Part shown: positions 7,992 to 48,198 of the stretch, piece by piece
Layout of the letters: each line of letters starts with the position of its first letter
Numbering within the stretch: the stretch's first letter is position 1
From: Streptomyces sp. NBC_00376
GTDB taxonomy: Bacteria > Actinomycetota > Actinomycetes > Streptomycetales > Streptomycetaceae
Length of the DNA: 64,000 bases
Assembly (NCBI RefSeq): GCF_036077095.1
Contig: NZ_CP107960.1
Coordinates: 2,542,001-2,606,000, forward strand
Direction of reading: 5' to 3'
Program-made: the position numbers and the translations under genes
The notes under the pieces: generated by a model
The model's input: the letters and a program-made list of their open reading frames with translations, nothing else
What the model was told of the DNA's origin: nothing
The model's database searches: none

Positions 7992-8124
7992 GCGGCCACG
8001 GATCGATGACAGACTCGATTGCCCCAGGTAATGCCCGTATCCCTCACCCGTCAGGCCGCTTAGAGCCCCCCACCGGCCCCTTCAGACGGCAAGCCGACGT
8101 ACTGCTGTCACGCCCGGAGGATTC

Positions 8125-8532: not shown

Positions 8533-9094
8533 CGGCGGTGCGGCCCGCGCCACCACCTCGGCGAAGATCGTGGTGGCCGGGGGCTTCGGCGTGGGCAAGA
8601 CCACGTTCGTAGGTGCCGTCTCGGAGATCAACCCGTTGCGTACGGAGGCCGTGATGACGTCCGCGTCCGCGGGCATCGACGACCTGACGCACACCGGGGG
8701 CAAGACGACGACGACCGTCGCCATGGACTTCGGTCGCATCACCCTGGACCAGGACCTGATCCTGTACCTCTTCGGTACGCCCGGTCAGGACCGTTTCTGG
8801 TTCATGTGGGACGACCTGGTCCGCGGCGCCATCGGCGCCGTCGTCCTCGTCGACACCCGCCGCCTCGCCGACTGCTTCCCCGCCGTCGACTACTTCGAGA
8901 ACAGCGGCCTCCCGTTCGTCATCGCCCTCAACGGCTTCGACGGACACCAGCCCTACACCCCCGACGAGGTCCGCGAAGCCCTCCAGATCGGCCCCGACAC
9001 GCCGATCATCACGACGGACGCGCGGCACCGCGCGGACGCCAAGAGCGGTCTGATCACGCTCGTGGAGCACGCCCTCATGGCCCGGCTCAAGTAG
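8513..9094 (+). CDS. cvnD: CvnD GTPase, conservon copy 1
   Basis: A 193-residue small GTPase of the conservon type. The P-loop is GGFGVGKT at residues 23-30, the DxxG switch is replaced by LFGTPGQDRFW as in this family, and ALNGFDG stands at the guanine-recognition position. The GTG start at 8513 lies inside cvnC1. The protein differs from copy 2 at about five positions, and a 257-bp block (8738-8994) is identical at DNA level to 14003-14259. Confidence 0.94.
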   Translation: MDFASSSGGAARATTSAKIVVAGGFGVGKTTFVGAVSEINPLRTEAVMTSASAGIDDLTHTGGKTTTTVAMDFGRITLDQDLILYLFGTPGQDRFWFMWDDLVRGAIGAVVLVDTRRLADCFPAVDYFENSGLPFVIALNGFDGHQPYTPDEVREALQIGPDTPIITTDARHRADAKSGLITLVEHALMARLK

Positions 9095-12400: not shown

Positions 12401-12657
12401 CCAACGACGAGCGCTGGGAGCGGGCCGAGAAGCTCCGGGAGCCCAAGGCGGGCGGGATCACCCCGTCCGGACTCCCCCGGCGGGTGCCCAAGGCCAATCT
12501 GGTCGAGGGCACGGCCGAGCAGACCTTGCAGGGCGGCCCCCAGGTTTCCCGTGCCCCCGAGGACGTCCGCGGCAGGTTGAGCAACCTGCGGCGGGGCGTG
12601 CTGCGGGGACGCAGCGCGGGTTCGGACGACAGTAATACCTACAACCAGGAGCGTTAG
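9442..12657 (+). CDS. cvnA: CvnA-type sensor kinase-like protein, conservon copy 2
   Basis: A 1071-residue paralogue of the first CvnA with the same order: a short N-terminal tail, transmembrane segment (LNAILLIPVLVGLVMGG), helical sensor region, second membrane segment (VVVVALLAAFVLAGLMA), HAMP, DHp-like LDHLATRMRRNGENLL, HATPase with LLAELLENATTFSS and KGIGLTAED, then a Gln/Pro/Tyr-rich tail ending LPRRVPKANLVEGTA. The sensor and tail have diverged strongly from copy 1 while the catalytic core is close, so the two probably answer different cues. GTG start at 9442 with GAGAGG upstream. It ends one base before cvnB2. Confidence 0.92.
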   Translation: MRRSNAGSTAQERGNFTPPPRAAASSAEASDATVPGGSTSRLSPRNWRVPTRLNAILLIPVLVGLVMGGFQVKGSIDTWREAQDAEKTALIVRAAAEYGQALLNERDLSAQPLLSNKRNADIIAEVRATTDAAADKFDAAVKDMPKKQGLERRLQLFQLEEPTLPELRKAAFAEGMDPVKTEEGYVKVQHSLMEFSNELGLGTGNITAYGRTVYAIELAKAAESLQRSIGMHLLVRPSQESAKFDAQVKAFGSYNYLEQIALGEFNSGGTEADAARLKQVMVAKAEEGAKDLKQAKEEADAAGTPFVAPPSIDGSVFDGMAQQIGQGKSPEKLAAKGITPETWMAAATAKFDGYTTVEDELVDKAVTEAADISSSAKNDAVINAAVVVVALLAAFVLAGLMARQMSRSMRQLRTAAFGIAEQRLPMLVDQLSRAEPGRVDTRVQPIPIHSHDEIGEVARAFDQVHREAVRLAAEQAMLRGNVNAIFTNLSRRNQSLIEGQLTLITDLENNEADPDQLENLFRLDHLATRMRRNGENLLVLAGEEPGRRWNQPVPLVDVLRAAASEVESYERIELAGVPETEIHGQSVTDLVHLLAELLENATTFSSPQTKVRVTATRLPDSRVMIEIHDKGIGLTAEDFADINHKLANPPTVDAAVSQRMGLFVVGRLSDRHGIRVQLRPSGEQAGTTSLVMLPDAITHGGGGEPSAATDDFTVSSIIPEQQSFEQQPSPHMRTAAELGFDDSRYEQPSADAAQLDPVGRSLMREERRAALEAQTASGHQQFPQEQYADNQYGDGGYAGNGYAQEPQQGSQQEQYEQAPQQVPQQGQYEQAPYQGGYEPYQADAGLAQQPGQGLPGGYTEGAYAAAEAPQPSYEEQFAPQPHQDDWPDQGAYQDTYEPSAPAEAESFASAPAEPQERVGFDRPGPTPDSGPELTEAGLPRRGGQQHWQPTGRGNSRPVAAQQQRQREEPQQEPAQAGADGSDDWRSANDERWERAEKLREPKAGGITPSGLPRRVPKANLVEGTAEQTLQGGPQVSRAPEDVRGRLSNLRRGVLRGRSAGSDDSNTYNQER

Positions 12658-12658
12658 T

Positions 12659-13081
12659 GTGAGCCCGATGAGCCAGGCGGCGCAGAATCTGAACTGGTTG
12701 ATCACCAACTTCGTGGACAACACCCCCGGGGTGTCGCACACGGTGGTGGTCTCCGCCGACGGACTCCTGCTGGCCATGTCCGAGGGATTCCCCCGTGACC
12801 GCGCCGACCAGCTGGCGGCCGTCGCCTCCGGGCTGACCTCGCTGACCGCGGGTGCTTCGCGGATCTTCGAGGGCGGCGCGGTGAATCAGACAGTTGTGGA
12901 GATGGAACGCGGATTCCTCTTCATCATGTCCATTTCCGACGGATCTTCACTTGCCGTTCTCGCACATCCGGACGCCGATATCGGTCTGGTTGGGTACGAA
13001 ATGGCACTTCTCGTCGACCGTGCGGGCAGTGTCCTCACCCCGGACCTCCGTGCTGAACTGCAGGGAAGTCTTCTTAACTAA
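12659..13081 (+). CDS. cvnB: CvnB roadblock/LC7 protein, conservon copy 2
   Basis: 140 residues, nearly identical to the copy-1 CvnB over the whole length. Start is GTG at 12659, one base after the cvnA2 stop, with AGGAG upstream. Residue 126 onward reads VLTPDLRAELQGSLLN. Expected to bind the GTPase CvnD as an MglB-type partner. The 5' third is almost identical to copy 1 in DNA, whereas the 3' part (from about 12890) has many synonymous changes and uses more A/T at third positions, a mosaic pattern. Confidence 0.92.
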   Translation: MSPMSQAAQNLNWLITNFVDNTPGVSHTVVVSADGLLLAMSEGFPRDRADQLAAVASGLTSLTAGASRIFEGGAVNQTVVEMERGFLFIMSISDGSSLAVLAHPDADIGLVGYEMALLVDRAGSVLTPDLRAELQGSLLN

Positions 13082-13170
13082 TAGACAGACAGTGCGTTTC
13101 GCGCCACCGGGCCATAAGGTGCGTTGGCGCGGACCCACTGGGATCGGGACCGGTAGTCGGAGGAGGAATC

Positions 13171-13797
13171 GTGGACACACCCCAGGGCGGACACCCGTAC
13201 AACGGTGGCCGGCAGGTACCGGGTGAGCACGGGGACAACCGGTTCAACTTCCCCTCCGCACCCAGCGGACACGGCGCCCAGCAGCCTTACCGGCCCTATC
13301 AGCAGCAGCCGCAGCAGCCCCCGCGGCCGCCGCACGACGCCCAGCAGGGTTCCGGGTGGCCCACGCAGCGTCCGTACCGCTACAACTCGCCCCAGGCGCC
13401 CCGTATCCAGCCGGTCCAGCCGCGGCAGACCCCCGAGCCTGCCGCGCCCGCCGCGCACAATCCGCTGGTTCGTCCGTACGCCATGACCGGCGGCCGGACC
13501 CGACCGCGCTACCAACTCGCCATTGAGGCGTTGGTCAGTACCACGGCCGATCCGTCCCGGCTGCAAGGGCAGTTGCCCGAGCACCAGCGGATCTGCCGGC
13601 TGTGCTTCGAGATCAAGTCGGTCGCCGAGATTTCGGCACTGCTCTCGATCCCGCTCGGCGTTGCCCGGATCCTCGTAGCCGACCTGGCAGAGGCCGGACT
13701 CGTCGCTATCCATCAGCCCGGCGGCGACGAGTCCGCCGGCGGCCAGCCAGATGTGACACTGCTCGAAAGGGTGCTCAGTGGACTTCGCAAGCTCTAG
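13171..13797 (+). CDS. cvnC: CvnC DUF742 protein with Pro/Gln-rich N-terminus, copy 2
   Basis: A 208-residue DUF742 protein. The conserved domain begins around residue 105 at LVRPYAMTGGRTRPRYQL and ends LLERVLSGLRKL. Before it lie about 100 low-complexity residues rich in Gln, Pro, Tyr and Gly, absent from copy 1. GTG start at 13171 has a perfect GGAGGAA site. It overlaps cvnD2 by 20 nt, as in copy 1. Confidence 0.92.
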   Translation: MDTPQGGHPYNGGRQVPGEHGDNRFNFPSAPSGHGAQQPYRPYQQQPQQPPRPPHDAQQGSGWPTQRPYRYNSPQAPRIQPVQPRQTPEPAAPAAHNPLVRPYAMTGGRTRPRYQLAIEALVSTTADPSRLQGQLPEHQRICRLCFEIKSVAEISALLSIPLGVARILVADLAEAGLVAIHQPGGDESAGGQPDVTLLERVLSGLRKL

Positions 13798-14359
13798 CGG
13801 CGGAGCAGCCCGCTCCACTACCTCGGCGAAGATCGTGGTGGCAGGGGGCTTCGGCGTGGGTAAGACCACGTTCGTCGGTGCCGTCTCGGAGATCAATCCG
13901 CTGCGCACCGAAGCCGTGATGACGTCCGCCTCCGCGGGCATCGACGACCTGACGCACACCGGGGACAAGACCACCACGACGGTGGCGATGGACTTCGGTC
14001 GTATCACCCTGGACCAGGACCTGATCCTGTACCTCTTCGGTACGCCCGGTCAGGACCGTTTCTGGTTCATGTGGGACGACCTGGTCCGCGGCGCCATCGG
14101 CGCCGTCGTCCTCGTCGACACCCGCCGCCTCGCCGACTGCTTCCCCGCCGTCGACTACTTCGAGAACAGCGGCCTCCCGTTCGTCATCGCCCTCAACGGC
14201 TTCGACGGACACCAGCCCTACACCCCCGACGAGGTCCGCGAAGCCCTCCAGATCGGCCCGGACACGCCGATCCTGACGACGGACGCGCGGCACCGCGCGG
14301 ACGCCAAGAGTGCGCTGATCACGCTCGTGGAGCACGCCCTCATGGCGCGCCTGCGGTAG
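13778..14359 (+). CDS. cvnD: CvnD GTPase, conservon copy 2
   Basis: 193 residues, near-identical to the other CvnD. P-loop GGFGVGKT, LFGTPGQDRFW and ALNGFDG are all kept. The differences are conservative: Ala/Ser near residue 13, TGD for TGG, Leu/Ile, Ala/Gly and a C-terminal Arg for Lys. The near identity of B and D proteins from both copies suggests that they could interchange partners. The gene ends in front of a strong convergent hairpin. Confidence 0.94.
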   Translation: MDFASSSGGAARSTTSAKIVVAGGFGVGKTTFVGAVSEINPLRTEAVMTSASAGIDDLTHTGDKTTTTVAMDFGRITLDQDLILYLFGTPGQDRFWFMWDDLVRGAIGAVVLVDTRRLADCFPAVDYFENSGLPFVIALNGFDGHQPYTPDEVREALQIGPDTPILTTDARHRADAKSALITLVEHALMARLR

Positions 14360-16413: not shown

Positions 16414-16440
16414 AGTCTTTGTGCGAGTCCGACAAAGACT
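16414..16440. promoter_or_regulatory. Inverted repeat upstream of accB, touching the end of the SBP gene
   Basis: AGTCTTTGT and ACAAAGACT form a perfect 9-bp inverted repeat around a 9-base loop. It lies about 130 bp upstream of the accB start and reaches the stop of the solute-binding-protein gene, so it may be an operator for accB or a terminator for the operon. I cannot decide from sequence. The remaining bases 16287-16413 show no gene. Confidence 0.35.
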
Positions 16441-17696
16441 CACTGTGGTCTGCTGCACACCCCTGTCAGCCTCCGGGTGTCGTCCGGTTGGGCCTCCTGG
16501 ACCCGTTGGACGTCGGCGAGCCGGGGTCGCACCGGGGCGTCGGGGTGGGCCATGGTCAGCAGCACCGCCTCGTAGAAGGCGTCCCGCACGGCGGCGGGCA
16601 TCACATCGGAGGCGTCCAGGCAGAGCGGCACCCGCTGGTCGGTGAGGCGGTCGCTGATCTGCTTCTCGACGGTCCCCTTCGGGGCAGGCACGCGGAAGTT
16701 CGGCGAGAATACCCCGGCCCGGCGGCCCCACTCCTGCTGGGCCCCGCGCGAGGTGAGCCGGGTGAGCAGATCACGGGCCTGTGCGGAGTCGCCGAAGAGC
16801 ACGGCGAAGTCGGCGGACACCTCGCGGCCCTTGAGCCCGCGGCCTTTGAGCCCGGGGCCCGAGGGCAGCAGCGGCGCGGAGTCCGTGACGGCGGCCTGCC
16901 CGCTGCGGTCCCGGTAGAAGAACCGGGCGAAGGAGCCCTGGTGCTCCAGCTCACATTTCTTGGTTTCGTCGAAGAGCAGCCCGTGCCCGCCGGGCTCTCC
17001 CCGGTGGTCTTCGCGCATGGCCCGGCCGGCGGCTTCCGCGTCCTGGGCCAGCAGTCCGGCCCACAGGCTCCAGGCGCCGACGAGCCGGTCGTCCGTCCAC
17101 TCCAGGCCCCCGGTCGCCCAGCGCTCGTACAGCACCGGGCCCGCATTCTGCAGGATCAGGTCCTCGATCCAGTCGCTGCCCGGCCAGCCGGACGCGCCGT
17201 CGTCGCCCATGCCGATGCACCAGGAGGCGAGCGACGCGGGGCGGGCCGGCGGCGGGCTGCCCTTGCGGTACCAGACGAGGGACTTGAGGTCGGCCTTGAG
17301 CGGCACCCAGAGATTGGCCTCTATGCCCTTCGCCTCCGGCTGCCAGGGTCTGCCGTACTTCGCGGCCGCGCCCTTGCCGCCCAGCGGGCGCAGCCGCCCC
17401 TCCGCGGCGTACTCGACGAGGTCCCCGACGCCGGGCAGGATCGCGATGTCGGGCGGATTGCCGGCCTGCACGGCGGCGAGCAGGACCTCCCGGGTGGCGG
17501 CGGTGCCCTGGTAGGTGTACGGGGTGCCCAGGGTGTCCAGGACCGCCTTGAAGTGCGTCTCCTGTATGTCGGTCCACGGCCCGAGGATCGTCACCCTCGG
17601 CTGTTCGTCGCTGCCGCCGGGTGCGGCGAGCCCGCAGCCCGCCGCGGTCAGCGCCAGGCACAGCAGGAGCAGGAGTGCCCGGGCACGCACCGTCAT
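16440..17696 (-). CDS. Extracellular solute-binding lipoprotein
   Basis: A 418-residue secreted lipoprotein. The N-terminus MTVRARALLLLLCLALTAAG ends in a lipobox with Cys at residue 21. The body resembles family-1 type ABC solute-binding proteins: VTILGPWTD at the start, PPDIAILPGVGDLVEYAAEGRL, then LVWYRKG and WCIGMGDDGASGWPGSDWIEDL. No permease or ATPase lies nearby. Instead the gene ends a five-gene operon with a membrane protein, a VWA protein, a PknG-like kinase and a protease. ATG start at 17696 overlaps the upstream stop (ATGA). By analogy with mycobacterial GlnH it may sense a ligand for the kinase rather than import it; that is inference. Confidence 0.85.
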   Translation of the reverse strand: MTVRARALLLLLCLALTAAGCGLAAPGGSDEQPRVTILGPWTDIQETHFKAVLDTLGTPYTYQGTAATREVLLAAVQAGNPPDIAILPGVGDLVEYAAEGRLRPLGGKGAAAKYGRPWQPEAKGIEANLWVPLKADLKSLVWYRKGSPPPARPASLASWCIGMGDDGASGWPGSDWIEDLILQNAGPVLYERWATGGLEWTDDRLVGAWSLWAGLLAQDAEAAGRAMREDHRGEPGGHGLLFDETKKCELEHQGSFARFFYRDRSGQAAVTDSAPLLPSGPGLKGRGLKGREVSADFAVLFGDSAQARDLLTRLTSRGAQQEWGRRAGVFSPNFRVPAPKGTVEKQISDRLTDQRVPLCLDASDVMPAAVRDAFYEAVLLTMAHPDAPVRPRLADVQRVQEAQPDDTRRLTGVCSRPQ

Positions 17697-18700
17697 CCGG
17701 CCCTCCAGTAGTCGGCGTTCAGGTGCCGGCCGATGCCGACGGCGGGCAGCAGTACGACCAGGGCGCCGGCCGCGAGCGCCCCGTAGTAGATGCCGCTCTG
17801 CCAGCCCTGGGCGGCCAGCCCGGCGCGCACCTCGGTCGCCGTTTTGGTGACGTCCTGCTGGGATTCGGCCAGGTCGGCGTGGTTCCGGGCCTGTTGTTCG
17901 ATCAGGACCAGCCCGTCGCGGGCCTCGCCCAGCCGGTCCTGGGTGTTGCTCGTCGCGATCAGCGGGACCGTCGCCAGGAAGACGACGGCCAGCAGCGAGA
18001 CCAGCAGACAGAGATCGCGGCTGTGCCCGCAGCGGGTGCGCAGCGTCCACAGCGCGGAGAGGGTGATCAGGGCCATGGCAAGCAGGCCGAGTTCGGCGAC
18101 CGCCCAGCCGGTCCACCGCAGGGGGCTCATCGAGGTGAGCGTGTCGATCCTGGCCATCTGGTGTCCCTGGAGGACGTCCAGACGCGGCACCACACCGGTG
18201 CCCTTGCGGGTGAGGAGGGTCTCGGCCTCCTCGAACTTCTCCTGCTGCATCGGCTCGTCCCGCACGTACTTCACCGCGCCGGGGGTGATGGAGCTGCTGT
18301 AAGAGGTGAGCAGCCCGTTCACGGTTTCGAGCACCCCGCGGCCGCGGTCCCCGTCGATCTGTACGTCGGAGAGCCGGGACAGGCCCTGGTCGGCGGCGGC
18401 GAGCTGGTTCTCGTACCGCGCGCCGGCGCCGACCACATCGGCGATGCGCTCGCGCACGGATGTCCGGGCCTCCTCGTGGGCGCGCAGCAGGGCGAGCTGG
18501 GTGGCGGCCACGCCCTGCACGGCCGGGGCGCCGCGGGTGCGCATCTCGCCGGCCGAGATCTGGACCTCGCGGTACGAGACGAGCAGGGCGGTCATCGAGA
18601 CCAGGGCGGTCACCAGCAGCGCGGCCAGGTGCCATTCCAGCAGCCGCCGGGTCCGGGAGCGGTAGGCGTTCCTGCGCGGGCGGACCGGTCCGGGGCTCAC
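17693..18700 (-). CDS. Four-helix membrane protein, GlnX-like position
   Basis: A 335-residue membrane protein with no family I recognise. A basic N-terminal tail precedes a first membrane segment (LAALLVTALVSMTALLVSY, about residues 23-43). There follow about 150 residues predicted outside the membrane (helical, many charged residues), then two close segments (VAELGLLAMALITLSALW and LLVSLLAVVFLATVPLIA), a 60-residue helical loop and a last segment (YYGALAAGALVVLLPAVGI). The layout of a helical sensory loop between membrane segments recalls mycobacterial GlnX. GTG start at 18700 overlaps the upstream TGA; its own stop overlaps the lipoprotein start. Confidence 0.8.
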   Translation of the reverse strand: MSPGPVRPRRNAYRSRTRRLLEWHLAALLVTALVSMTALLVSYREVQISAGEMRTRGAPAVQGVAATQLALLRAHEEARTSVRERIADVVGAGARYENQLAAADQGLSRLSDVQIDGDRGRGVLETVNGLLTSYSSSITPGAVKYVRDEPMQQEKFEEAETLLTRKGTGVVPRLDVLQGHQMARIDTLTSMSPLRWTGWAVAELGLLAMALITLSALWTLRTRCGHSRDLCLLVSLLAVVFLATVPLIATSNTQDRLGEARDGLVLIEQQARNHADLAESQQDVTKTATEVRAGLAAQGWQSGIYYGALAAGALVVLLPAVGIGRHLNADYWRAG

Positions 18701-20106
18701 AGCTGCCTCCCGCAGTCGATGCAGAACACGGCGGCGGGTCCGGCCGGGTGGTCGCAGTGCGGGCAGCGGGTCCCCGGCCCGGGTGCCGGGAAGGCGGGCA
18801 GTTCCACGGGGTGTCCGGAGGTGATGCTCAGCATCCCCTGGCGGACGGCGCCCGGGTCGACGGCGGATCCGATCCGGACCCGTCCCTGGGGGCCGTCCAC
18901 GATGCGGGCGACCTTGCGGACCTCGTCCAGGACCCAGTCGGCGGCGATCTCGGTGGCGAGCCGGACGGCGAGCCCGAGCTGTGCCTCGGCCCGCTCGCGG
19001 CTCTCCAGGTCGAGGGCGGCGTACCCGTGGTTGAGGGCGGTCCGCATCTGTGTGGAGACGTTCATGGTGTGGATGTTGCGGCCCACGGCGCCGGAGATGC
19101 GGGCGGTGTCCGCGGCGGTGCCCGACGGCAGCCAGCGGACCACGACCGGCTCGGTGGCGCCGCCGACGGAGACCGCGGCGAGCTGGAGGGGCACGCCCAG
19201 CGGGTCGTTGCCCGCGTCGGCCCGGAGGGTGAGGAGGTAGTCGCGGGACTCCGGCTGCCACTGGTGGGTGCGGAACTCCAGCCGGTGCGGATCGTCCCGG
19301 ACCCGGTCCGGCTCCAGCCGCTGCTGGTGCGGTGCGGTCTCGGTCAGGGTCACTTCCCGCACCGCCGGGCGCACCGTCACCACGATGGGGAGTTCGGGGC
19401 TGCGGACCCGGCGCAGCCTGACCAGGGCGGTGGCGACGGCGGGGGCGAAGGCGTCGGGCGAGGACACGGCGGTGCCGTGCAGCCGTTCCGCGACGGCGAG
19501 CAGCGGGGCCGGGTCCCAGCCAACCCCCGGTGCGACGACATCGGCGGTGAACTCGCCCTCACATGCGGCCAGTTCGATGCTCAGCTCACTGTCCGGGTGG
19601 TTGGCGTCGTCCCCCTCGCCCCGGCTGCCGCCGTCGGTGACGAGCACCAGGTGCCGTACGGGAAGGGGGCGTTCGGCGAAGAGTTCGCGCGCCATGGCCA
19701 GCCAGGTGGTGTAGCCGGCCGGCTCCTGCCCCTCGGCGGACGCGGAGATCCGTCCGACGCTGAACACGGCCCGGTGCCGGTCGTCGGGCCCGGCCAGCGC
19801 CCACCGGCCGCGCAGCGGGTAGCACTGCTCTCCGCCGCCGCCCAGCACGGTGTACGAGATTCCGTCGGGCAGGGCGCCCACCGCCCCGGTCAGCGCGGCG
19901 ACGGCCGCGTCACGCCGCCCGGCGGCCACGTCCACCGCGATGACCAGCGCGATGTCGACGGCGGGCACCCGGTCGCGCGGCCCGGCGGCGACCGCCCGGA
20001 CCCGCACATGGGCGTCGATCCGGGCGTCCCGGTCCGGCCGCTGTTTCTTCGCGACCTGGACGGTGAGGCCGATTCCGAGTCCGGGCGACGCGGCGGTGCG
20101 GCCCAT
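18697..20106 (-). CDS. VWA-domain protein with C-terminal zinc ribbon
   Basis: A 469-residue soluble protein. Residues 50-230 look like a von Willebrand A fold: hydrophobic strand ALVIAVDVAAG (Asp59), central VRHLVLVTDGGSRGEGDD and a following beta/alpha series. The metal site is degenerate, since DxSxS reads DVAAG. The middle has beta-sandwich character. The last 25 residues hold two CxxC pairs (CPHCDHP and CIDCGRQL), a zinc ribbon. The start abuts the kinase stop with no gap, so they are co-translated. Probably an adaptor for the PknG-like kinase or the protease; the partner is inferred from the operon. Confidence 0.8.
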   Translation of the reverse strand: MGRTAASPGLGIGLTVQVAKKQRPDRDARIDAHVRVRAVAAGPRDRVPAVDIALVIAVDVAAGRRDAAVAALTGAVGALPDGISYTVLGGGGEQCYPLRGRWALAGPDDRHRAVFSVGRISASAEGQEPAGYTTWLAMARELFAERPLPVRHLVLVTDGGSRGEGDDANHPDSELSIELAACEGEFTADVVAPGVGWDPAPLLAVAERLHGTAVSSPDAFAPAVATALVRLRRVRSPELPIVVTVRPAVREVTLTETAPHQQRLEPDRVRDDPHRLEFRTHQWQPESRDYLLTLRADAGNDPLGVPLQLAAVSVGGATEPVVVRWLPSGTAADTARISGAVGRNIHTMNVSTQMRTALNHGYAALDLESRERAEAQLGLAVRLATEIAADWVLDEVRKVARIVDGPQGRVRIGSAVDPGAVRQGMLSITSGHPVELPAFPAPGPGTRCPHCDHPAGPAAVFCIDCGRQL

Positions 20107-22452
20107 TCAACTGCCTCCAGGGGTGCGGCGCCGGGGCGGGAACCAGTAGCGGGTCTGCGGGCGGACGGCGTGCGAGAGGTCGATGAGCTTCTCGTGGTCG
20201 GCGGTGTCCCTGCACTGCCGGGCCATCCAGCGGTAGCACCGGGCCAGGTCCTCCCGCACGGCCCGCTCCCCGGGCACCGGTGGCGGTGGCAGTCCCCGCC
20301 GCCACCAGTGCCCGTCGTGGCGCGGGTCGCCGGCCTCGGCCCGGACCGCGTCGAGCTTCCACTCGTACAGTTCGGTGCGCAGCAGCCGGGCCGACTCGTC
20401 GCCCGTCACCACGGACGCCGGATGCGGCCCGTGGCCGCCCTCGCGCAGCGGGACCGCGGCGAGCACGGCGTCGATCCGCCGCGTCCCGGGCAGCGGCCGC
20501 CCGCCCGCAGCGAGCCGGGCCGCCCGGATGCGCAGCGCGGCGATCCGGGCGACGGTGTGGTCCCGCGACTCGTCCGGCACCAGGTCCAGGACCTCGGCCG
20601 CGGCGTCCCGGTCGCCGCGCTCCAGCGCCAGCCTGGCCAGGCCCAGCGCGGCTCCGACGTGGGAGGGGTTGCGGGCGTGCACGGCCCGGAAGAGTTCGTA
20701 CGCCGACGGGATCGGACCGGCCGGGCGGTCCGGGCCGAGCTGTTCCGCGGCGTAGGCCAGGGCCAGCTTCGCGGCGTACTCGCCGGGCAGCGCGCGGTGG
20801 ACGGCGGCGAAGTGTTCCAGGGCGGCCTCCAGCAGCTGCCGCCGGTCGTCCAGTACCTCCGCGCTGCGCAGCGCGACGAGCCCCCAGTGCCAGCTGAGCC
20901 GCCACTGCCGCACCGGCCCCGGTCCGGGTATGGCGTCAGCCGCCGCCACCTGTTCGCGCGCCAGGCTCAGGGCTTCGGCGCCCTCCCGGCCGAGCAGCAG
21001 CCGGGCGTTGTGCAGACAGATCTCCACCGACTGTTCGCCCTCGGCGGGCTGGGCCAGCAGCCGTCCGGGGTCGTAGCTGCTCACCAGGAACCGGGCGGCC
21101 TCCGGGTCCCCCGGGTAGGGCCTGGGCACCGGCAGCCGCCGGGCGATCTCGGTGGGGGTGGGGAGCCCGGTGTCCAGCGCGGGCGCCCGGGGCGTCAGGT
21201 CGCGGCGGTGCGGGGTGCGCTCCAGCCAGTGCGCGTAGTCGGGTACGGTGCCCAGCCGCCCGCCGAGCAGCCGGGTGGACGGGGTGAAGTAGGCGGAGGG
21301 CTCGGTCCGGTCCTGCTTGCCGCGCAGCGCCCGGATCTCTCGCAGCACCCCGCGCAGCTGGCCCGCCATCTCCTCCGCGTCGGCGAACCGGCGTTCCGGG
21401 TCCTGGTCGGTCGCCCGTTCCACCACCAGCCGGAAGGAGCTGGTGCCGAGGCCGGGTACGTCGTCGCCGACCGCCCAGCCCGCCAGTTCGGCCAGGGTCG
21501 CGCCGACCGTGTGGATGTCGTGGGCGACGGTCAGCGGGCTGCCGCTGACCATCTCGGGCGCGGCGTATCTGGGGGTGATGACGGGCGGCGGTTCGGTGGA
21601 TCCCTGTTTGCGGACCCCGCCGAGGTCGATGACCTTCACGCCCTCGTGCTGGTGGACGACGTTGGACGGCTTCATGTCCCCGTACAGGAAGCCCATGCCG
21701 TGCAGATGGGCGAGGGCTTCGAGGATCTGGCAGCCGTAGGTGATGACGTGTTCGATGTCGAGGACGAAGTTGCCCTGCCGGGTCGCCTCGACGACGGCGG
21801 ACAGGGTGCGGTCGCCGACGTCCTGCATCACGATGTAGCCGCCGGAGACCGTGCCGTCCGCGCTGACGGTGCTGACGAAGTCCCGGATCTGGACGATGCG
21901 TTCGTGCCGGATGGCGACGAGGCTGCGGCGCTCCTCGGCGGCCTGGGCGGCGCCGCGTTCCGCGTACCGGTTCAGCATCCCCTTCACGGCGACGAGGTCT
22001 TCGAGGTGGGTGTCGCGGGCGAGGTAGACCCAGCCCTGGCCGCCGTGGGCGATGGGTCCGAGGATGCGGTACTGGCCCTGGAGCAGCGGACCGTCCCGGT
22101 CGAGTTCGGGGCGGTAGGAGTAGGGGGCGCCGCACCTGGGGCAGTGGCCCTCGTCGGGCGGCGGGGCGGCTGTGTACGGGGCGACGAAGTAGGTGGCGCA
22201 GGACTTGGACGAGCAGCTCATCCGGACGTGGGCCCGGGTCACGGCGGCGCTCAGCCGCTGGTCGGGGGTGCTCGGGTCGAGCCGTGGCAGTTCCAGCAGC
22301 TGCCGGGGGCCGCACCGGTCGGGGGCGGTGGGCAGCGGCGGGAGTCCCGGGCCGTCCTCGGAGCGGCCGCAGGTGTCGCAGTAGCCGGTGGACCGCACCG
22401 CGCCGTCGCAGGGGGCTCCGGTGAACCGGCGGTGCGGGCAGGGGATCCTCAT
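20107..22452 (-). CDS. PknG-type serine/threonine kinase with zinc ribbons and TPR-like tail
   Basis: 781 residues. The N-terminus has two cysteine clusters (CPHRRFTGAPC with CDTCG at 5-28; MSCSSKSC with CPRCG at 80-107), matching the rubredoxin-like region of PknG. The kinase domain follows: glycine loop AHGGQGWVYLARD (135-147), Lys157 in VAVKGML, catalytic YGDMKPSNVV (Asp259; YGD for HRD) and DLGG (Asp276; DLG for DFG). The C-terminal half is alpha-helical with TPR character, as in PknG. In mycobacteria PknG controls glutamate metabolism by phosphorylating GarA/OdhI and responds to GlnH/GlnX; no FHA target gene is present here. The start overlaps the protease stop (ATGA). Confidence 0.88.
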   Translation of the reverse strand: MRIPCPHRRFTGAPCDGAVRSTGYCDTCGRSEDGPGLPPLPTAPDRCGPRQLLELPRLDPSTPDQRLSAAVTRAHVRMSCSSKSCATYFVAPYTAAPPPDEGHCPRCGAPYSYRPELDRDGPLLQGQYRILGPIAHGGQGWVYLARDTHLEDLVAVKGMLNRYAERGAAQAAEERRSLVAIRHERIVQIRDFVSTVSADGTVSGGYIVMQDVGDRTLSAVVEATRQGNFVLDIEHVITYGCQILEALAHLHGMGFLYGDMKPSNVVHQHEGVKVIDLGGVRKQGSTEPPPVITPRYAAPEMVSGSPLTVAHDIHTVGATLAELAGWAVGDDVPGLGTSSFRLVVERATDQDPERRFADAEEMAGQLRGVLREIRALRGKQDRTEPSAYFTPSTRLLGGRLGTVPDYAHWLERTPHRRDLTPRAPALDTGLPTPTEIARRLPVPRPYPGDPEAARFLVSSYDPGRLLAQPAEGEQSVEICLHNARLLLGREGAEALSLAREQVAAADAIPGPGPVRQWRLSWHWGLVALRSAEVLDDRRQLLEAALEHFAAVHRALPGEYAAKLALAYAAEQLGPDRPAGPIPSAYELFRAVHARNPSHVGAALGLARLALERGDRDAAAEVLDLVPDESRDHTVARIAALRIRAARLAAGGRPLPGTRRIDAVLAAVPLREGGHGPHPASVVTGDESARLLRTELYEWKLDAVRAEAGDPRHDGHWWRRGLPPPPVPGERAVREDLARCYRWMARQCRDTADHEKLIDLSHAVRPQTRYWFPPRRRTPGGS

Positions 22453-23831
22453 CGGCGGCCGGCCCGGCCGTGCTCGCCGCGCGGTCCGGGTACGTCCGCC
22501 CGGCCGTGCCGCTCCAGCTCCGCCCGGACTTCACGCAGCAGGGCGCGCAGGGCGGAGAGCCGTTCGCGCGGGTCGCCGACGGTGCGCAGCCGGGCCAGCT
22601 GCTGTCGGTGGCGGGCCGCCTCGGTGCGCGGCCGGGGGCCCAGGGAGGCGGATTCCACCAGGCCGTTCAGCCCGGCCCATTGCTTCTCGATCTCCTCGAC
22701 GCGGCGGACCAGTTCGACGGCCCGTTCGTCGAGGGCCGGTACCAGCAACTGCCGTACCACCTCGTCCACTTCGTCGCCGCCGCTGTCCCGCACGATGACG
22801 AGCAGCCGGAAGCCGAGTGTCCGCACCCGGGCGAGCAGGGGCACCAGCCGGTGCGGCCGCCGGTCCTCGTCGAGCCCGACCACGGCGAGGGTGGGCCCGG
22901 AGCTCCCCCGCCCGCCGTCCGCCGCCCGCTCGGGCGGGGTGCCGCCCGTGAGCAGCCACTCGCGGTAGGCCTGGGCCTGGTGGCGGGGCGGGCGCAGCCT
23001 GGTCACCAGTTCGCCGACGAAGTCCTCGGGGGCGGTGCGGCCGCCCCGGTAGACGAGATGGGCGCGGTGCAGATGGTGCCTGAGCGTGCGGTCGCGGCCG
23101 CCGCCGTGCGGTACGACGCTGAAGCGCACCGCGGGTTCCTCACCCCCGGCGAACCATCTGCGCAGCCGCCGGTCCAGGCCGTGGTCCCAGCCGTCCGGGC
23201 CACTCAACTCGGCGACCAGTGGGACGAGTTCGGCGATCCGGTCGATCGGGATCATGTACGAGAACGCCAGGTCGTTGTCGGCGGGCAGCGCCAGATCGAG
23301 GTCGCCGCGCCAGCTGACGACCATCCCGACGACCCGCTCGGACGTTCCGGCCGGTCCGCCGCGCACCTGCACGGCGGCGCCGCTGAACCCGGGTTTCACC
23401 ACTTGTTCGTTGCGTGCGGCGTCGAGCTGGATCCAGGCGCCGTGTGCTCCGCTGATCCGCCCGGTCAGCCACATCCCGTCGGCGAAGGAGCGCGCGTAGC
23501 CGCCGATCCACACCTCGCCGCCGCGCTCCAGGTGCCGTTCGAGCGTCGCGGGGGTGGCGTGCGGGCGCGGGCTGTCCAGGGCGAGTACGGCGATGTCCTC
23601 GCGGGTCGCGCCGAGACCGGGCAGCCAGCCGCCCTCGGCGACGCGGGCCCCGACCGGGGCGATGGCGGGGTTCTCGGCGAATTCCACCCAGATCCGGGCG
23701 TCCGGCTCCCCCACCACGTGCGCGCAGGTGAGTGCCCGGTCCTGGGTCAGCAGCACACCGGCGCCGCAGACCGGCCCGTTCGCGTCGTCCCGCCGTAATC
23801 GGATCCGCCAGTCCGCCCTCAGCTCCCCCAT
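22449..23831 (-). CDS. Trypsin-like serine protease heading the PknG operon
   Basis: A 460-residue protein with a chymotrypsin-like fold in the first 215 residues: His38 in LTCAHVV, Asp79 in REDIAVLAL and Ser150 in KPGFSGAAV. The usual GDSGGP is altered but the nucleophile is present. There is no signal peptide, so it should be cytosolic. Residues 220-450 are helical and charged, with an Arg-rich basic end; they resemble the accessory regions of trypsin-like proteins found with bacterial effector or conflict systems. It is the first gene of the five-gene operon, and the promoter should lie in 23832-23940. The target protein is unknown. Confidence 0.82.
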   Translation of the reverse strand: MGELRADWRIRLRRDDANGPVCGAGVLLTQDRALTCAHVVGEPDARIWVEFAENPAIAPVGARVAEGGWLPGLGATREDIAVLALDSPRPHATPATLERHLERGGEVWIGGYARSFADGMWLTGRISGAHGAWIQLDAARNEQVVKPGFSGAAVQVRGGPAGTSERVVGMVVSWRGDLDLALPADNDLAFSYMIPIDRIAELVPLVAELSGPDGWDHGLDRRLRRWFAGGEEPAVRFSVVPHGGGRDRTLRHHLHRAHLVYRGGRTAPEDFVGELVTRLRPPRHQAQAYREWLLTGGTPPERAADGGRGSSGPTLAVVGLDEDRRPHRLVPLLARVRTLGFRLLVIVRDSGGDEVDEVVRQLLVPALDERAVELVRRVEEIEKQWAGLNGLVESASLGPRPRTEAARHRQQLARLRTVGDPRERLSALRALLREVRAELERHGRADVPGPRGEHGRAGRR

Positions 23832-23940: not shown

Positions 23941-23983
23941 ATGCGGGGCGGGGCAGTCCGCCGAGGACTGCCCCGCCCCGCAT
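23941..23983 (-). terminator. GH101 gene terminator
   Basis: A perfect 19-bp stem (arms 23941-23959 and 23965-23983, GC-rich with ends ATGC/GCAT) and a 5-base loop, starting 10 bp after the GH101 stop. No T-tract. It insulates the downstream protease-kinase operon. Confidence 0.85.
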
Positions 23984-23992
23984 CGGATCGAG

Positions 23993-26900
23993 TCAGCCGC
24001 CGCAGTGGAAGCGGGCGTCGCCCCAGTCCGCGTGGTCGTTGCCGTTGCCGTCGCCGCCGTCGCCGACGACCAGTTCGACGTACTTGGCCCCGGTGACGTC
24101 CGCCGTCAGCGACCAGGCGCTGTCGGCCGCCTTCAGCACGGGCGACTTCACCTTCTCGGTGCCGTCGGCCGTGACGGAGAACTGCACGCTGCCGGCGCTC
24201 TTCTGCACGTCGTCCACGCCGACCTGGGCGGTGAACGAGGTGCACTTCCCGCCCAGGTAGTAGCGGATCCTCGCCGGCGCGTGGCTGCCGAGCCCCTTGG
24301 TGTAGACGGTGCCGCCGATGGTCAGCGGGGAGCCGTCGCCGGTGCCGGTCTCACCGTTGGAGAGGTCCTTCTCCACCGGGCCCCAGCCGTTCTGGGAGGC
24401 CGTCCAGTCCAGGTCGCTGGCCCAGCTGTCGGTGGTGGGCGGCGGCGGCAGGGTCCGTACGGAGGTCTGCGCGCCGAGCGTGCGCCGTGCCCCGCCGACG
24501 GTGTACTGCGCCTCGGAACTCAGGCCGTACGTCTGGTACTTGGCGTCCACCGGCGGGGTGACCTGCCAGCTGCCGGTGACCTGGGCGCCCGCCGCGACGG
24601 AGTCGAAGGTGACGGCGCCGGTGGGCTCCGCCGTCCAGCCCTCGGGCACGGTCAGGCTGAGTGCGACGCCGGTCGCCGCCGTCGCCTCGTAGTTGGTGAA
24701 CGAGACCTTGACGGTGTTGGCCGTGCCCGGCTCCAGGGTCTCGGCGGCCGGTGCGACGGTGAGGGTGCCGCAGGCGGCCTGCTCGGAGTCGGGGGCCGGG
24801 CCGAGGTCGGTCACGGTGAAGGAGTCGAGTACGAAGTCGGCGCCGTCGGGGGCGTCGTCGCGCTTGCGCAGCCCGGTCCAGGCGTCGCCGCAGCCCGCGG
24901 TGACGGTCTCGGCGAAGTGGCCGGTGGTGCGCTGCTGTCCGATGGCGGTGGTCCGGGTCTCGACCGAGCCGGGCTTTCCTTCGGCGGTGATCCGGTCGTA
25001 GCCGTCGACCCACTCGTAGGCGCCCGCGTGGCTGGACTGGTAGTCGTACTCGACCTTGTAGCGGTGCCCGTCGGTCATCGGCACGGTCCACGGGGCGGTG
25101 CGGTAGACGAGTCCGGAGTTCTCCTCGTGGGACTTGAGGGACTCCTTGCCGCCGATCACGTCGTCGATCAGCTTTCCGTTCCAGCCGGCCTGGGTGTACG
25201 GGGCGTGCAGCTGGGAGATGACGGTGCGGGGGTCGGTGGAGCCGCCCGCGTCGCCCTTGAGGAAGGGGCCCCAGCCCTGGTCGACGGCCTCGAAGTCCTC
25301 GTAGGAGAGGGTGTTCGCCTTCGTCTCCGGGGCGTTGGCGACGATGCGTACGTCATCGGCCCGGACGCTCGCGGAGCTGCCGTCGGCCGCCTCGATGCGC
25401 AGGGTGGTGCTGCCGTTCGCGGGGGCGGTGAAGTTCACCTTGGCCCGCTGGAAGTACGTGCCGTGCCGCTCGGACGCGGCGACGTAGTCCTTCGCGGTGG
25501 AGCGGTCCACCGAGACGGACTTCCCGCCGATCGAGAGCGTGGTGTGCCGGCTCTTCCCGGGCTGGACCTCGATGAGCGCGGACGCGGTGTAGCGCTTGCC
25601 GGGGGCGAGGCCGTCGACGCGCTGCGAGAGCGCGGCGGTGGAGCTGCCGGAGAGCTGGGCGCTGGTGAGGCCCTTGGCGTCGGTCTCACGGGCGACGGTG
25701 CCGGTCTTCGACCAGGCGGTCAGCCCCTTGTCGTTGAAGCCCGGGTCGTCGACCGGGGTGCCCTCGCCCCACCGGGGGTCGGCGGCCTTCGGGGCCTGCT
25801 GCGGGTAGAGGACGTACGGCTGACCCGCCTTGGCGGTCAGCGTGATCTTCCCGTCGACGGGCTTGACCGTGCCGGTCTTGACCCGGCCGTTGTCGGTGAG
25901 CTCGTAGACGGTGTACGTGCCGTTCGACGGCACCGCCCAGCTGCTCGTACCGCCGGACTTGCTGTAGTGGTACAGCTTCTTCCCGCCGTCCCACGGCAGC
26001 AGGTAGTCGGTGCCGCTGAGGACCTTGCGGCCGTGGTCGTAGAACGTCCTCTTGCCGTCCTCGACCGTGCCCCGGACACCGCCGGTGAAGGTGATGTCGT
26101 TGCCGTCCCAGCGGGTGATCTTCTGGTGCTGGAGGTACTTGGCTGGCAGGTTGCGCTGCCAGATGTTGCTGGAGAAGGCGTTCCAGTCGGTCTCGTTGGT
26201 CCAGCCCTCGAACTCCTCGATGGCCGTCTGGCCGAGGACCGGGTCGTTGTTCCAGACGTCCTTCTCGCCGTTGCGGATGAACCGGATGATCTTCGAGTTG
26301 AGGCCCTTGTTGGTGGCGCCGCCGTAGTCGAGGTCATTGGCCCAGTGCGACCAGAGCGAGCCGCGCTCGAACTTGTCGGCCCACTCGGTGGCGACGTTCC
26401 AGCCCTGCTTCTGCACGGACTGCAGGGTCTTGTCCGCGATCCAGCCGTGCGAGTAGTAGACGTCGATGTAGAGCAGGCTGAGATTGGGGTCCGTCTCGTC
26501 GCGCAGCTGCTGGAAGCGCTTGGCCAGGTCGCCGCTGTTGATGTCGCGGCGCTGGTCGATGTAGTAGCTCTGGCCCAGCCAGTTCCAGCCCGGCTTGGTC
26601 TTGTCGACGAGCTTCTCGTCGAAGGCCTTGGCCTCCGGGTACGCCTCGGTGGCGTTGACGTGGACGCCGAAGGTGGCGCCCCACTTCTTGCCGTCCTTCA
26701 GGAGCGCGTTGAGGTCCTTCAGCCCGCCGGCGCGCTTGTTGTAGTCGCCGCCGTAGTCGGGGTGGGCGGAGTCGTGGCCCTCGGAGGCGTATCCCTTGAG
26801 GAGCGCGAGCTGCCCGAGGCCGTCGGTGGCGAGCGAGACCCGCTTGACGTCGTCGAGGGTGCGCAGGAAGGGGTGGGTGGCCTGGCTGGCGAAGTTGAAC

Positions 26901-27868
26901 GGAATGTGGGTGACGACCCGCTCCGCGGTGTCCTTGCTGCCGGGCGCCACGACGCCGATGGAGCGGAACGCGACGGCTCCGTCCTGCCAGTCGACCGCCT
27001 TGTCACCGTTGGCGTCGGGGGTGACGACGACCTTCGCCCAGGGCAGGTTGTTCCCGCTCTCCGGCTTCGGTGCCCCGTCCCCGCGGTAGGTCCACTGACC
27101 GGACCAGACGCCGACCCGGACGCTGCCGTCGTCGGCCTTGCGGGCCTGGTGCCAGAACCGGGCGTCGTCGCCGCCGGTGGCGCCGGACGGCTTGTCGTAC
27201 GAGGAGTTGGACTCCACGGCCGCGGCGAGCGAACCGGTGTTGAGAAACGCGTACGAGGCACCGACCGGCGCCTTGTCGGCGGCGGTGTCCGCGGTGACCT
27301 TCGAGAAGACGTCGGCGGTCTTCGTCGAGTCGTTGTCCAGCCGGGTGAAGGCGGTGGCCCCGCCGTTGTCCGTGGAGCCGACGGAGACCAGGTCGTGGCC
27401 GGGGATGTCGATGGTGCCGACGCGGAACGTCTCGGTGTCGCGGACGGCCGTCACCTTGAAGGTGGTGGCGCGTCCGGAGACGGAGAGCGAGGCGTCGATC
27501 TCGATGCCGGGCAGGTCGGTGAAGACCAGCGTGTAGCGGGCGGCCGAGGCGGTGACCACGGGGGCGCCCTTGAGCTTCACCGGGTGCGCGGTGCCGTTCA
27601 GGGTCACGGCGGTGACCGGCTGGGTGCTGCCGAACAGCTGACTGCCGGTGGCCTTGTCGGTGTACGCAAGGACGCGCGGGAAGTCGTCGGCGACGGCGAC
27701 CGAGAGCTGCTCGGACCCGATGACGGTGGCGCCCGCGGGGACGGCCGGCCCGACTGCGGCGGGTGCGGGGGCGGAGGCGGCGGTGGCGGGGAGCGCGGTC
27801 CCCACCAGCGCCAGGACGGCGGCTGAGGCGGCGGCGACAGCGCCCGCCGAAGTGAATCTTCGCGACAT
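23993..27868 (-). CDS. Secreted endo-alpha-N-acetylgalactosaminidase (GH101)
   Basis: A 1291-residue exported glycosidase that releases Gal-beta-1,3-GalNAc (core 1) from Ser/Thr of mucin-type glycoproteins. A signal peptide begins MSRRFTSAGAVAAASAAVLA and ends near TAASA. The catalytic region shows LLYIDVYYSHGW, whose Asp near residue 468 fits the nucleophile, and NVATEWADKFE, whose Glu near 493 fits the acid/base, in the expected spacing. Beta-sandwich regions follow, then an NEW3-like domain, and a C-terminal NPCBM module from about 1130 (NGWGPVEKDLSNGE, KGLGSHAPARIRYYL). An in-frame upstream ATG at 27940 would put 24 residues before the signal peptide, so 27868 is preferred. Confidence 0.9.
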   Translation of the reverse strand: MSRRFTSAGAVAAASAAVLALVGTALPATAASAPAPAAVGPAVPAGATVIGSEQLSVAVADDFPRVLAYTDKATGSQLFGSTQPVTAVTLNGTAHPVKLKGAPVVTASAARYTLVFTDLPGIEIDASLSVSGRATTFKVTAVRDTETFRVGTIDIPGHDLVSVGSTDNGGATAFTRLDNDSTKTADVFSKVTADTAADKAPVGASYAFLNTGSLAAAVESNSSYDKPSGATGGDDARFWHQARKADDGSVRVGVWSGQWTYRGDGAPKPESGNNLPWAKVVVTPDANGDKAVDWQDGAVAFRSIGVVAPGSKDTAERVVTHIPFNFASQATHPFLRTLDDVKRVSLATDGLGQLALLKGYASEGHDSAHPDYGGDYNKRAGGLKDLNALLKDGKKWGATFGVHVNATEAYPEAKAFDEKLVDKTKPGWNWLGQSYYIDQRRDINSGDLAKRFQQLRDETDPNLSLLYIDVYYSHGWIADKTLQSVQKQGWNVATEWADKFERGSLWSHWANDLDYGGATNKGLNSKIIRFIRNGEKDVWNNDPVLGQTAIEEFEGWTNETDWNAFSSNIWQRNLPAKYLQHQKITRWDGNDITFTGGVRGTVEDGKRTFYDHGRKVLSGTDYLLPWDGGKKLYHYSKSGGTSSWAVPSNGTYTVYELTDNGRVKTGTVKPVDGKITLTAKAGQPYVLYPQQAPKAADPRWGEGTPVDDPGFNDKGLTAWSKTGTVARETDAKGLTSAQLSGSSTAALSQRVDGLAPGKRYTASALIEVQPGKSRHTTLSIGGKSVSVDRSTAKDYVAASERHGTYFQRAKVNFTAPANGSTTLRIEAADGSSASVRADDVRIVANAPETKANTLSYEDFEAVDQGWGPFLKGDAGGSTDPRTVISQLHAPYTQAGWNGKLIDDVIGGKESLKSHEENSGLVYRTAPWTVPMTDGHRYKVEYDYQSSHAGAYEWVDGYDRITAEGKPGSVETRTTAIGQQRTTGHFAETVTAGCGDAWTGLRKRDDAPDGADFVLDSFTVTDLGPAPDSEQAACGTLTVAPAAETLEPGTANTVKVSFTNYEATAATGVALSLTVPEGWTAEPTGAVTFDSVAAGAQVTGSWQVTPPVDAKYQTYGLSSEAQYTVGGARRTLGAQTSVRTLPPPPTTDSWASDLDWTASQNGWGPVEKDLSNGETGTGDGSPLTIGGTVYTKGLGSHAPARIRYYLGGKCTSFTAQVGVDDVQKSAGSVQFSVTADGTEKVKSPVLKAADSAWSLTADVTGAKYVELVVGDGGDGNGNDHADWGDARFHCGG

Positions 27869-27992
27869 GTGCCCTGAGTAGTCCCCGTGACCGGACACCG
27901 TCAACGACCTGCGACGACTCGGAGCCCTCCAGTCCAACAACCGCGTTGCGTAAGTCCAAGTGGACGGTAGGTGTCCGGTCCGGTACGCGATC

Positions 27993-47926: not shown

Positions 47927-48198
47927 ATGCACTTCGAAGACGGCGAACCGGTGTTCAGGAAAAGCCGCTTGGGGACGAACCGCTACCGGGATTCATTCGC
48001 AGTGCTCCGGCCCCCAGGCCGGGGGTGAAGCGAATCAGGTGGTGGCGACGCGGAGCGTCGCAGATTCTTGTCTGCGGAGCAGGCCGCAGCCGCGCGCGCG
48101 GGGGCTGTTCGCGGGAATGGTGGAGGGCACGGTTCCGGTGGTGCGGGGAACGGATGTTCCCGGTGACGGCAGGTGTGCGGTCTCTCTATGCTCGGCCC

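Follow-up and report, generated by a model that had tools for sequence, protein, structure and literature searches.

A five-gene Streptomyces unit with a PknG-type kinase and a trypsin-like protease: a candidate re-wired GlnH-GlnX-PknG pathway

Can a nutrient-sensing pathway of the PknG type pass its signal to a protease? In the PknG pathway the kinase phosphorylates an FHA substrate of the GarA/OdhI type. Signalling along GlnH-GlnX-PknG is backed experimentally in mycobacteria and C. glutamicum (PMC6069109, PMC9769921). The question is raised by five adjoining genes in a 64,000-nucleotide stretch of the Streptomyces sp. NBC_00376 genome (the window). An earlier note, made from the DNA letters, likened them to the mycobacterial pknG-glnX-glnH set.

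Results

The five genes are intact, occupy positions 16440-23831 as that note had placed them, and all lie on the minus strand. Along transcription their order is protease, kinase, VWA protein, membrane protein and solute-binding protein (SBP; Table 1), and the junctions in this order are a 4-base overlap, a zero gap and two more 4-base overlaps. That every junction is this tight had been claimed; the claim is right for the window but not as a general rule, because in relatives the kinase and VWA genes usually lie apart, by a median of 52 nt (n = 92). Overlaps of 4 bases occur in relatives at 57/87 protease-kinase, 76/85 VWA-membrane protein and 77/85 membrane protein-SBP junctions. A GH101 glycosidase gene lies upstream of the unit within the window. 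Between it and the protease gene sits an inverted repeat that possibly marks the upstream operon boundary; the terminator scan did not call this repeat, and the promoter and terminator scan gave no signal above chance.

Table 1. Features of the five-gene unit and its upstream flank (window positions)
Feature	Position	Strand	Basis
Trypsin-like serine protease, 460 aa, first gene	22449..23831	-	Trypsin_2, triad
Trypsin_2 domain, protease residues 23-154	23370..23765	-	Pfam
Ser/Thr kinase of PknG type, 781 aa, overlapping the protease gene by 4 bases	20107..22452	-	Pfam, PDB, profile comparison
Rubredoxin-like Cys set of kinase (C80, C85, C104, C107)	22132..22215	-	CCCC in 98/107 relatives
Kinase catalytic domain, residues 130-323 (K157, E174, D259, D276)	21484..22065	-	Pfam, conservation
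PknG_TPR domain, kinase residues 461-641	20530..21072	-	Pfam
VWA protein, 469 aa, C-terminal zinc-ribbon-like Cys, MIDAS degenerate (VDVAAGR)	18697..20106	-	Pfam, MIDAS comparison
4-TM membrane protein, GlnX-like, GTG start, 335 aa	17693..18700	-	4 hydrophobic segments; hhalign
Large TM1-TM2 loop, residues 44-198, probably on the outer side	18107..18571	-	TM calls; alignment of the family to GlnX 83-269
SBP lipoprotein of family 1 type, 418 aa, Cys21 in a lipobox-like motif	16440..17696	-	SBP_bac_1, PDB profile matches
GC-rich perfect inverted repeat, 16-bp arms, without T tract	23943..23980	-	Direct sequence reading

The surroundings of the protease were compared at 123 loci, protease matches of 150 bits or less (L119 among them) being kept out. 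Removal of 7 duplicates left 116 loci and removal of 21 with short flanks left 95. All five genes are found in identical order at 89 of these 95 distinct loci (86 by profile and 3 more in which the 4-TM gene was recognised by hhalign; some VWA genes were located via stop-to-stop frames), so that the co-occurrence proposed as a check is borne out. Kinase, 4-TM protein and SBP are present at 94/95. Because the order is kept while the proteases diverge to 21% identity with that of the window, chance proximity is disfavoured. Searching by SBP yielded 51 loci, of which 46 could be resolved and 5 were dropped at contig ends; for 4 of the dropped ones a module protease lies on another contig of that genome. 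A module-type SBP is carried by 51/121 sampled Streptomyces genomes. From the named-genome scan the best 80 of 223 were retained. L119 and L112 are frame-broken modules and L111 holds a protease remnant. Listed names of the module proteases are mostly serine protease or S1 family peptidase, those of the membrane proteins mostly hypothetical protein.

Natural variants of the module exist. Protease and kinase are fused at 5 loci, and membrane protein and SBP at 6, each of the latter called with 5 TM. One clade (L148-L151; 4/46 resolvable SBP loci) has kinase, membrane protein and SBP, with neither protease nor VWA protein, so some versions of the module can do without the protease. The kinases of this clade have intact motifs.

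The protease matches Pfam Trypsin_2 with 34.7 bits (cut-off 27.6) and no signal peptide was seen in it. Its triad His38/Asp79/Ser150 is intact, as had been noted, and the three residues are kept in 112 of 116 relatives; 3 relatives are partial and one carries a natural Ser-to-Gly exchange. In the module protease of L115 the catalytic Ser is lost. S. brevispora carries a protease 71% identical to that of the window.

The kinase has Pfam matches to Pkinase (96.3 bits) and PknG_TPR (PF16918; 105.7 bits, cut-off 27). The PknG rubredoxin model (PF16919) gives 18.0 bits, under its cut-off of 28.5, with all four Cys present; corynebacterial PknG is described as having no rubredoxin domain (PMC8546545). 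The catalytic loop reads YGD, and the active-site K, E, HRD-D, N and DFG-D are found in 107/107 relatives. Its top PDB match is M. tuberculosis PknG (2pzi, 228 bits, residues 97-639 aligned), and profile comparison of the kinase family with canonical PknG gives 100%, which upholds the PknG similarity first noticed in the letters. The genome carries two PknGs, and the sampled canonical ones form a separate clade (support 100/100). From this tree the module kinase is a PknG paralogue outside the canonical clade.

The membrane protein has no convincing Pfam match. Iterated HMMs merged it with GlnX sets, and the protease with helical-protein sets. Since such merging could be drift, module-only and canonical-only families were rebuilt for hhalign. 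Its family then matches GlnX at 98.3% (E 1.3e-14, over GlnX 83-269); the reversed control gives 0.6%, and reversed and shuffled controls range from 0 to 0.6%. In a control with 41 multi-TM proteins, which did not include loci from L148 on, the best of 37 unrelated proteins reaches 3.6%, and the four highest scores (95.0-97.4%) belong to module membrane proteins of the deep group. By these profile comparisons the membrane protein is a distant GlnX homologue. It shares with GlnX the predicted topology of 4 TM with a large TM1-TM2 loop. GlnX is described as carrying, between TM3 and TM4, a second four-helix bundle on the outer side (PMC9769921); this second large outer domain is absent here, TM3 and TM4 being only ~57 aa apart.

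The window SBP has a lipobox-like LTAAGC; the strict lipobox pattern is found in 43/88 SBPs. Its Pfam SBP_bac_1 score of 25.0 bits is slightly below the cut-off of 26. The earlier assignment to family 1 (sugar type) was correct: SBP_bac_1 is matched by 15/16 aligned members at E 0.1, SBP_bac_3 is not, and of the 26 PDB matches to the SBP profile, 15 have names that denote binding of sugar, chitin, maltose or glucose. GlnH belongs to SBP family 3 and binds Asp/Glu. Identity of the SBP with GlnH was rejected, as hhalign to GlnH gives 0.2% and the family is SBP_bac_1 rather than SBP_bac_3.

It could be asked whether the SBP serves a sugar importer encoded elsewhere, the other four genes regulating uptake. 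The sugar-binding PDB relatives of this family-1 SBP and the GH101 gene upstream would suit such a role. However, no ABC permease pair neighbours the SBP in the window, as the note had said, and a gene with at least 4 TM is among the next two same-strand genes after the SBP at only 5/94 loci; two 6-TM genes lie beside L160, a more distant SBP match. The SBP is moreover fused to the membrane protein at the six loci mentioned above. These natural fusions support an interaction of membrane protein and SBP, and we consider the importer explanation very improbable.

The VWA protein matches VWA_3 with 49.4 bits, its zinc ribbon being under the cut-off. The degenerate MIDAS that had been pointed out is real in the window protein but not a general trait, as DxSxS is intact in 46/94. 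A VWA protein is present at 89/90 resolved loci with a stand-alone protease and at 0/9 loci without one (5 fused, 4 protease-less), which fall into two separate clades. Most simply, the VWA gene would have been lost twice, both times where a stand-alone protease is absent. Because its loss tracks the absence of a stand-alone protease, the pattern suggests, from these two loss events, that the VWA protein is an adaptor.

Discussion

How does this unit relate to known systems? Like the GlnH-GlnX-PknG operon of mycobacteria and C. glutamicum, it combines a PknG-type kinase bearing a TPR tail and a rubredoxin-like Cys set with a 4-TM GlnX-like protein and an SBP lipoprotein in a single, here predicted, operon. 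It differs in having a family 1 SBP instead of SBP_bac_3, in the membrane protein without a second large outer domain, and in the added protease and VWA genes without an FHA substrate gene. The likeness to the mycobacterial set thus holds for kinase and membrane protein by homology and fails for the SBP. In addition, the genome of the module holds a canonical set too (L009; GlnX-GlnH-helical protein-PknG-PP2C-VWA-FHA). The presence of this second cluster led us to reject the module as an orthologue of the canonical PknG operon.

Kinase, VWA and membrane protein of the module are paralogues of their counterparts in the canonical Streptomyces cluster, the VWA proteins being homologous by profile comparison. 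The module has no PP2C, FHA or SBP_bac_3 gene, and a trypsin-like protease stands where the canonical cluster has the helical protein. The C-tail of the longer module proteases resembles this helical protein, which stands alone beside canonical PknG (hhalign 97.6%; reversed control 0.1%); the window protease is without the helical C-tail common to its longer relatives and the canonical helper protein. The canonical clusters showed no protease. Both protease and VWA had been regarded as additions. By our comparison the protease is a true addition relative to the canonical cluster, but the VWA protein is not, as the canonical cluster of this genome also carries one.

TerY-P triads are sets of kinase, PP2C and vWA. 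The module resembles these and the actinobacterial GAP1-N2 sets (PMC7159879) in its kinase, stand-alone vWA and zinc ribbons, and differs by lacking PP2C and by its extra protease, 4-TM protein and SBP. Among the matches listed (top two labels per gene), PP2C occurs only with canonical clusters and never beside modules.

Our results suggest that the five genes form a single signalling unit, namely a re-wired paralogue of the GlnH-GlnX-PknG pathway, in which an outside ligand acts on the PknG-type kinase and, via the VWA protein, on the cytosolic protease; we give this reading a probability of about 0.5. The SBP lipoprotein, of a sugar class judging from its family, would sense the ligand outside the cell. 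The 4-TM protein, whose homology to GlnX is established above, would read the SBP by contact, and it may control the cytosolic kinase through the TPR tail, as work on PknG implies. The kinase, with VWA as adaptor, would in turn control the trypsin-like protease, and this would cut some target protein. Physical coupling of kinase and protease is seen only as the natural fusion in one clade. Several observations tell against this reading: the protease-less clade, the lost Ser at L115, the missing helical C-tail of the window protease, the lack of a profile relation between SBP and GlnH, the absent second outer domain, the strict lipobox pattern in only 43/88 SBPs, and the small number of loss events (two) behind the adaptor proposal. 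The more detailed version, in which a sugar-type ligand licenses the protease through this chain and the ligand-to-metabolism relay is replaced, is put forward tentatively, the odds being somewhat against it.

A less likely alternative is a PknG-type nutrient sensor whose real task is to phosphorylate an unlinked substrate (compare GarA/OdhI), with protease and VWA as accessories, for example in feedback removal of kinase or membrane protein. The clade L148-L151, with intact kinase motifs and no protease or VWA, and the protease-free canonical clusters would fit it. It sits less well with the triad kept in stand-alone or fused form in 112/116 distinct proteins, and with a five-gene unit that has no FHA-type gene. 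In the fused clade, furthermore, the Lys of HRDxK is changed to Ser and the Gly of DFG to Ala in 5/5, yet the triad is kept, a pattern that a protease output would predict. It is important to note that the protease-less clade (kinase intact) and the fused clade (kinase altered, triad intact) point in opposite ways on whether the protease is the signal endpoint.

Could the unit instead serve conflict or defence, its trypsin-like effector being unleashed inside the cell under kinase/VWA control in a style akin to the VMAP (vWA-MoxR-associated protein) ternary systems of multicellular bacteria? Its patchy presence (51/121 genomes) and large divergence would agree with this, and in the same genus trypsin domains that lie outside the module score 118-148 bits against the module protease profile. 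The one whose neighbours were scanned (L064) belongs to a VMAP set that also contains Trypco1 and an AAA/MoxR-like ATPase (PMC7159879). VMAP ternary systems, as sketched there, also unite a trypsin-like peptidase and a vWA in one gene set. The module differs from them in showing no match to MoxR ATPase, VMAP-C or Trypco and in having, in their place, a PknG-type kinase that looks active and a predicted sensor of SBP and 4-TM protein. Membership in VMAP was rejected, since the five proteins have no MoxR or VMAP-C Pfam match, and four VMAP-type trypsin proteins show no match to the protease C-region (0.3%). A phage trigger would also be ill-suited to an SBP input. In PADLOC, among the matches listed, 25/32 are kinase models, mostly PD-T4-6, and the protease has a weak Avs1b match. 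A defence function is accordingly improbable.

Returning to the relay from ligand to protease, the natural variants (protease-kinase fusion, receptor-SBP fusion, sets without protease or VWA, and the Ser-to-Gly protease) offer a means of testing in which order the signal flows. If the relay is true, a ligand-to-protease output is added to a known type of nutrient-sensing pathway, and SBP-to-kinase signalling would extend from metabolic control to regulated proteolysis. A recurrent Streptomyces gene set, whose proteases and membrane proteins bear only generic names in listings, would thereby gain a function.

Results

Downstream of the protease gene in the window, the other four genes follow at junctions of −4, 0, −4 and −4 bases (Table), so that the zero gaps and 4-base overlaps described in the earlier note are confirmed. 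The host genome is 10 Mb in size and is grouped in one genus with genomes recorded as Streptomyces; GC content is 70%. The spacer between the GH101 gene and the protease gene is 161 bases long and contains a perfect inverted repeat of 16 bp, and a carboxyl transferase gene lies 153 bases downstream of the module. In several close relatives a product of ~1250–1315 aa, similar in size to the GH101 protein, is found upstream of the module. The GH101 neighbour may thus hint at an O-glycan ligand. Elsewhere, the window carries two similar adjacent operons, which we take to be of the conservon type. The genome also encodes, outside the module, a protein of 1457 aa in which numerous TPR repeats come after a trypsin domain (L067:8032-12405).

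Table. Coordinates of the module genes and other features of the window
Feature	Positions	Strand	Remarks
Protease gene	22449-23831	minus	First of five; Trypsin_2
Kinase gene	20107-22452	minus	Second of five; Pkinase and PknG_TPR
VWA (von Willebrand factor A-type) protein gene	18697-20106	minus	Third of five; VWA_3
4-TM membrane protein gene	17693-18700	minus	Fourth of five; no convincing match in the Pfam scan
Solute-binding lipoprotein (SBP) gene	16440-17696	minus	Fifth of five; SBP_bac_1, slightly under cut-off
GH101 endo-alpha-N-acetylgalactosaminidase	23993-27904	minus	Directly upstream of the protease gene
Operon	3813-9094		NIT-domain histidine-kinase-like protein first, then small proteins and a GTPase-like gene
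Operon	9442-14359		Same arrangement
OrfB_IS605/TnpB-like gene	48154-49446		Cas12f1-like TNB domain
410-aa product	36496-37728		No Pfam match at E 1e-5

Kinase and protease were searched separately in 121 genomes of the genus, and protease-based loci were taken from these and from named genomes scanned with a protease alignment (best 80 of 223 kept). The 123 loci with a protease match above 150 bits gave 116 distinct proteases, 95 of them with at least 6.8 kb downstream. All five genes were present in the same order in 80 of the 95, in a further six with membrane protein and SBP fused, and in a further three where the 4-TM gene was recognised by hhalign only (95.0–97.4%); the genes do keep together. 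Protease and kinase are fused and the VWA gene is missing in five loci, and one (L111) has only a protease remnant. In the reverse search with the SBP alignment, the 121 genomes contained 51 module-type SBPs (>360 bits), one per genome. Five lay at contig ends; a protease was in the locus in 42 of the other 46, and four (L148-L151, the protease-less clade) had kinase, membrane protein and SBP alone, with neither protease nor VWA gene. Genera named among the module loci are Streptomyces, Actinacidiphila, Peterkaempfera, Micromonospora (L132) and Actinokineospora (L144). Across the phylum, a sample of 396 genomes from 236 genera gave matches at E 1e-20 in 12 genomes and two genera; since the full-length high-scoring ones (four genomes) all belong to the window's genus, the unit is concentrated there.

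The HDS triad of the protease, read as intact in the window, is common to 112 of 116 relatives; three others are partial sequences, and L115, an otherwise complete five-gene set, has Gly for the catalytic Ser (GFGGAAV). All 107 kinase sequences keep the Lys, the Glu, the HRD Asp, the Asn and the DFG Asp. The rubredoxin-like Cys set is complete in 98 of 107 kinases, being absent from the fused clade and from three related five-gene sets (L033, L035, L123); the Cys pairs were not seen in the L148-L151 kinases. The degenerate MIDAS is real in the window's VWA protein but not general, as DxSxS is intact in 46 of 94 copies.

The predicted resemblance of the kinase to PknG holds, M. tuberculosis PknG being its closest solved structure. 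Assignment of the SBP to the sugar-type family 1 is likewise borne out: 15 of 16 module SBPs match SBP_bac_1 (E 0.1), and 15 of the 26 distinct PDB sequences found with the SBP profile are named sugar-, chitin-, maltose- or glucose-binding. PF28326, a newer Pfam accession, is found on most relatives of the membrane protein in a large protein collection.

A second PknG is present in the window's own genome. Its neighbourhood (L009) contains GlnX, GlnH (SBP_bac_3), a helical protein, PknG, PP2C, VWA and FHA/zinc-ribbon genes. This canonical cluster was found in 10 of 10 fully covered canonical loci (L009, L041-L049), and the VWA gene was called in nine. The VWA protein therefore belongs to the Streptomyces PknG scheme and is not, as had been proposed, an addition to it. 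For comparison by hhalign, one set of families was built from module loci and another from canonical loci. Kinase and PknG gave 100% (E 5e-132), the two VWA families 100% (E 1.5e-78), and membrane protein and GlnX 97.2%, rising to 98.3% (E 1.3e-14) with 85 sequences, which upholds the suspected likeness to GlnX. Unrelated pairs gave 0.1–0.4%, reversed or shuffled ones 0–0.6%, and unrelated multi-TM proteins against GlnX at best 3.6% (n=37). SBP and GlnH gave 0.2%. The C-terminal tail of the longer proteases (560–806 aa) matched the canonical helical protein at 96.3–97.6%; the window's protease is a short copy without this tail. In three loci (L018, L019, L062) the module adjoins canonical cluster genes in the same orientation.

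Discussion

Fusions and losses bear on how the products might work together. The trypsin triad is intact in all five fused protease-kinase proteins, and in all five the kinase has Ser for the catalytic-loop Lys and Ala for the DFG Gly. In the six membrane-SBP fusions five TM segments were called, the fifth lying between TM4 and the SBP in the three junctions that could be read clearly (L122, L133, L140); this predicted placement fits an SBP outside the cell. The VWA gene accompanies a stand-alone protease in 89 of 90 resolved loci (the exception is the L111 remnant) and is found in 0 of 9 loci without one (five fused, four protease-less). In an unrooted kinase tree of 30 rows, including four of the five fused loci, the protease-less clade joins the full five-gene locus L035 with support 100/100. 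Because the fused and protease-less clades separate in this tree, two VWA losses are the simplest reading. From these two events we infer that the VWA protein may link the kinase to the stand-alone protease.

We found no paper joining PknG, Streptomyces and a trypsin-like protease, and none joining SBP, protein kinase, trypsin-like, von Willebrand factor and Streptomyces. The set is undescribed in the titles and abstract openings that turned up, in which subscription literature was thinly covered. Its novelty is narrowed by what earlier papers report: SBP-linked or SBP-fused kinases in Streptomyces (SGR_4432 and SCO1468, which may or may not be members of the module, and others; PMC6069109), a fused S. 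coelicolor kinase-SBP protein (PMC1262709), and trypsin-containing VMAP systems and kinase-PP2C-vWA sets (PMC7159879).

In the known pathway, GlnH senses Asp/Glu outside, GlnX is the proposed relay and PknG phosphorylates GarA/OdhI; the PknG TPR domain is required, and its contact with GlnX is proposed (PMC6069109, PMC9769921, PMC8546545). By analogy, the module's signal would pass from the SBP through the 4-TM protein to the kinase, and the step from kinase to protease would be new. This step is supported by gene order, fusion, triad conservation and, in the fused clade, the altered kinase. Two observations speak against it: kinase motifs are intact in the protease-less clade, and one protease lacks the Ser. 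An order ligand-SBP-membrane protein-kinase-(VWA)-protease has, in our judgement, an even chance of being right. That the five products act as one unit is very probable (about 0.93). Compared with the canonical cluster, the module adds a trypsin-like protease and has an SBP of a different class (SBP_bac_1 versus SBP_bac_3): it is a conserved, paralogous PknG-type signalling unit in which a protease has been added and the SBP class exchanged.
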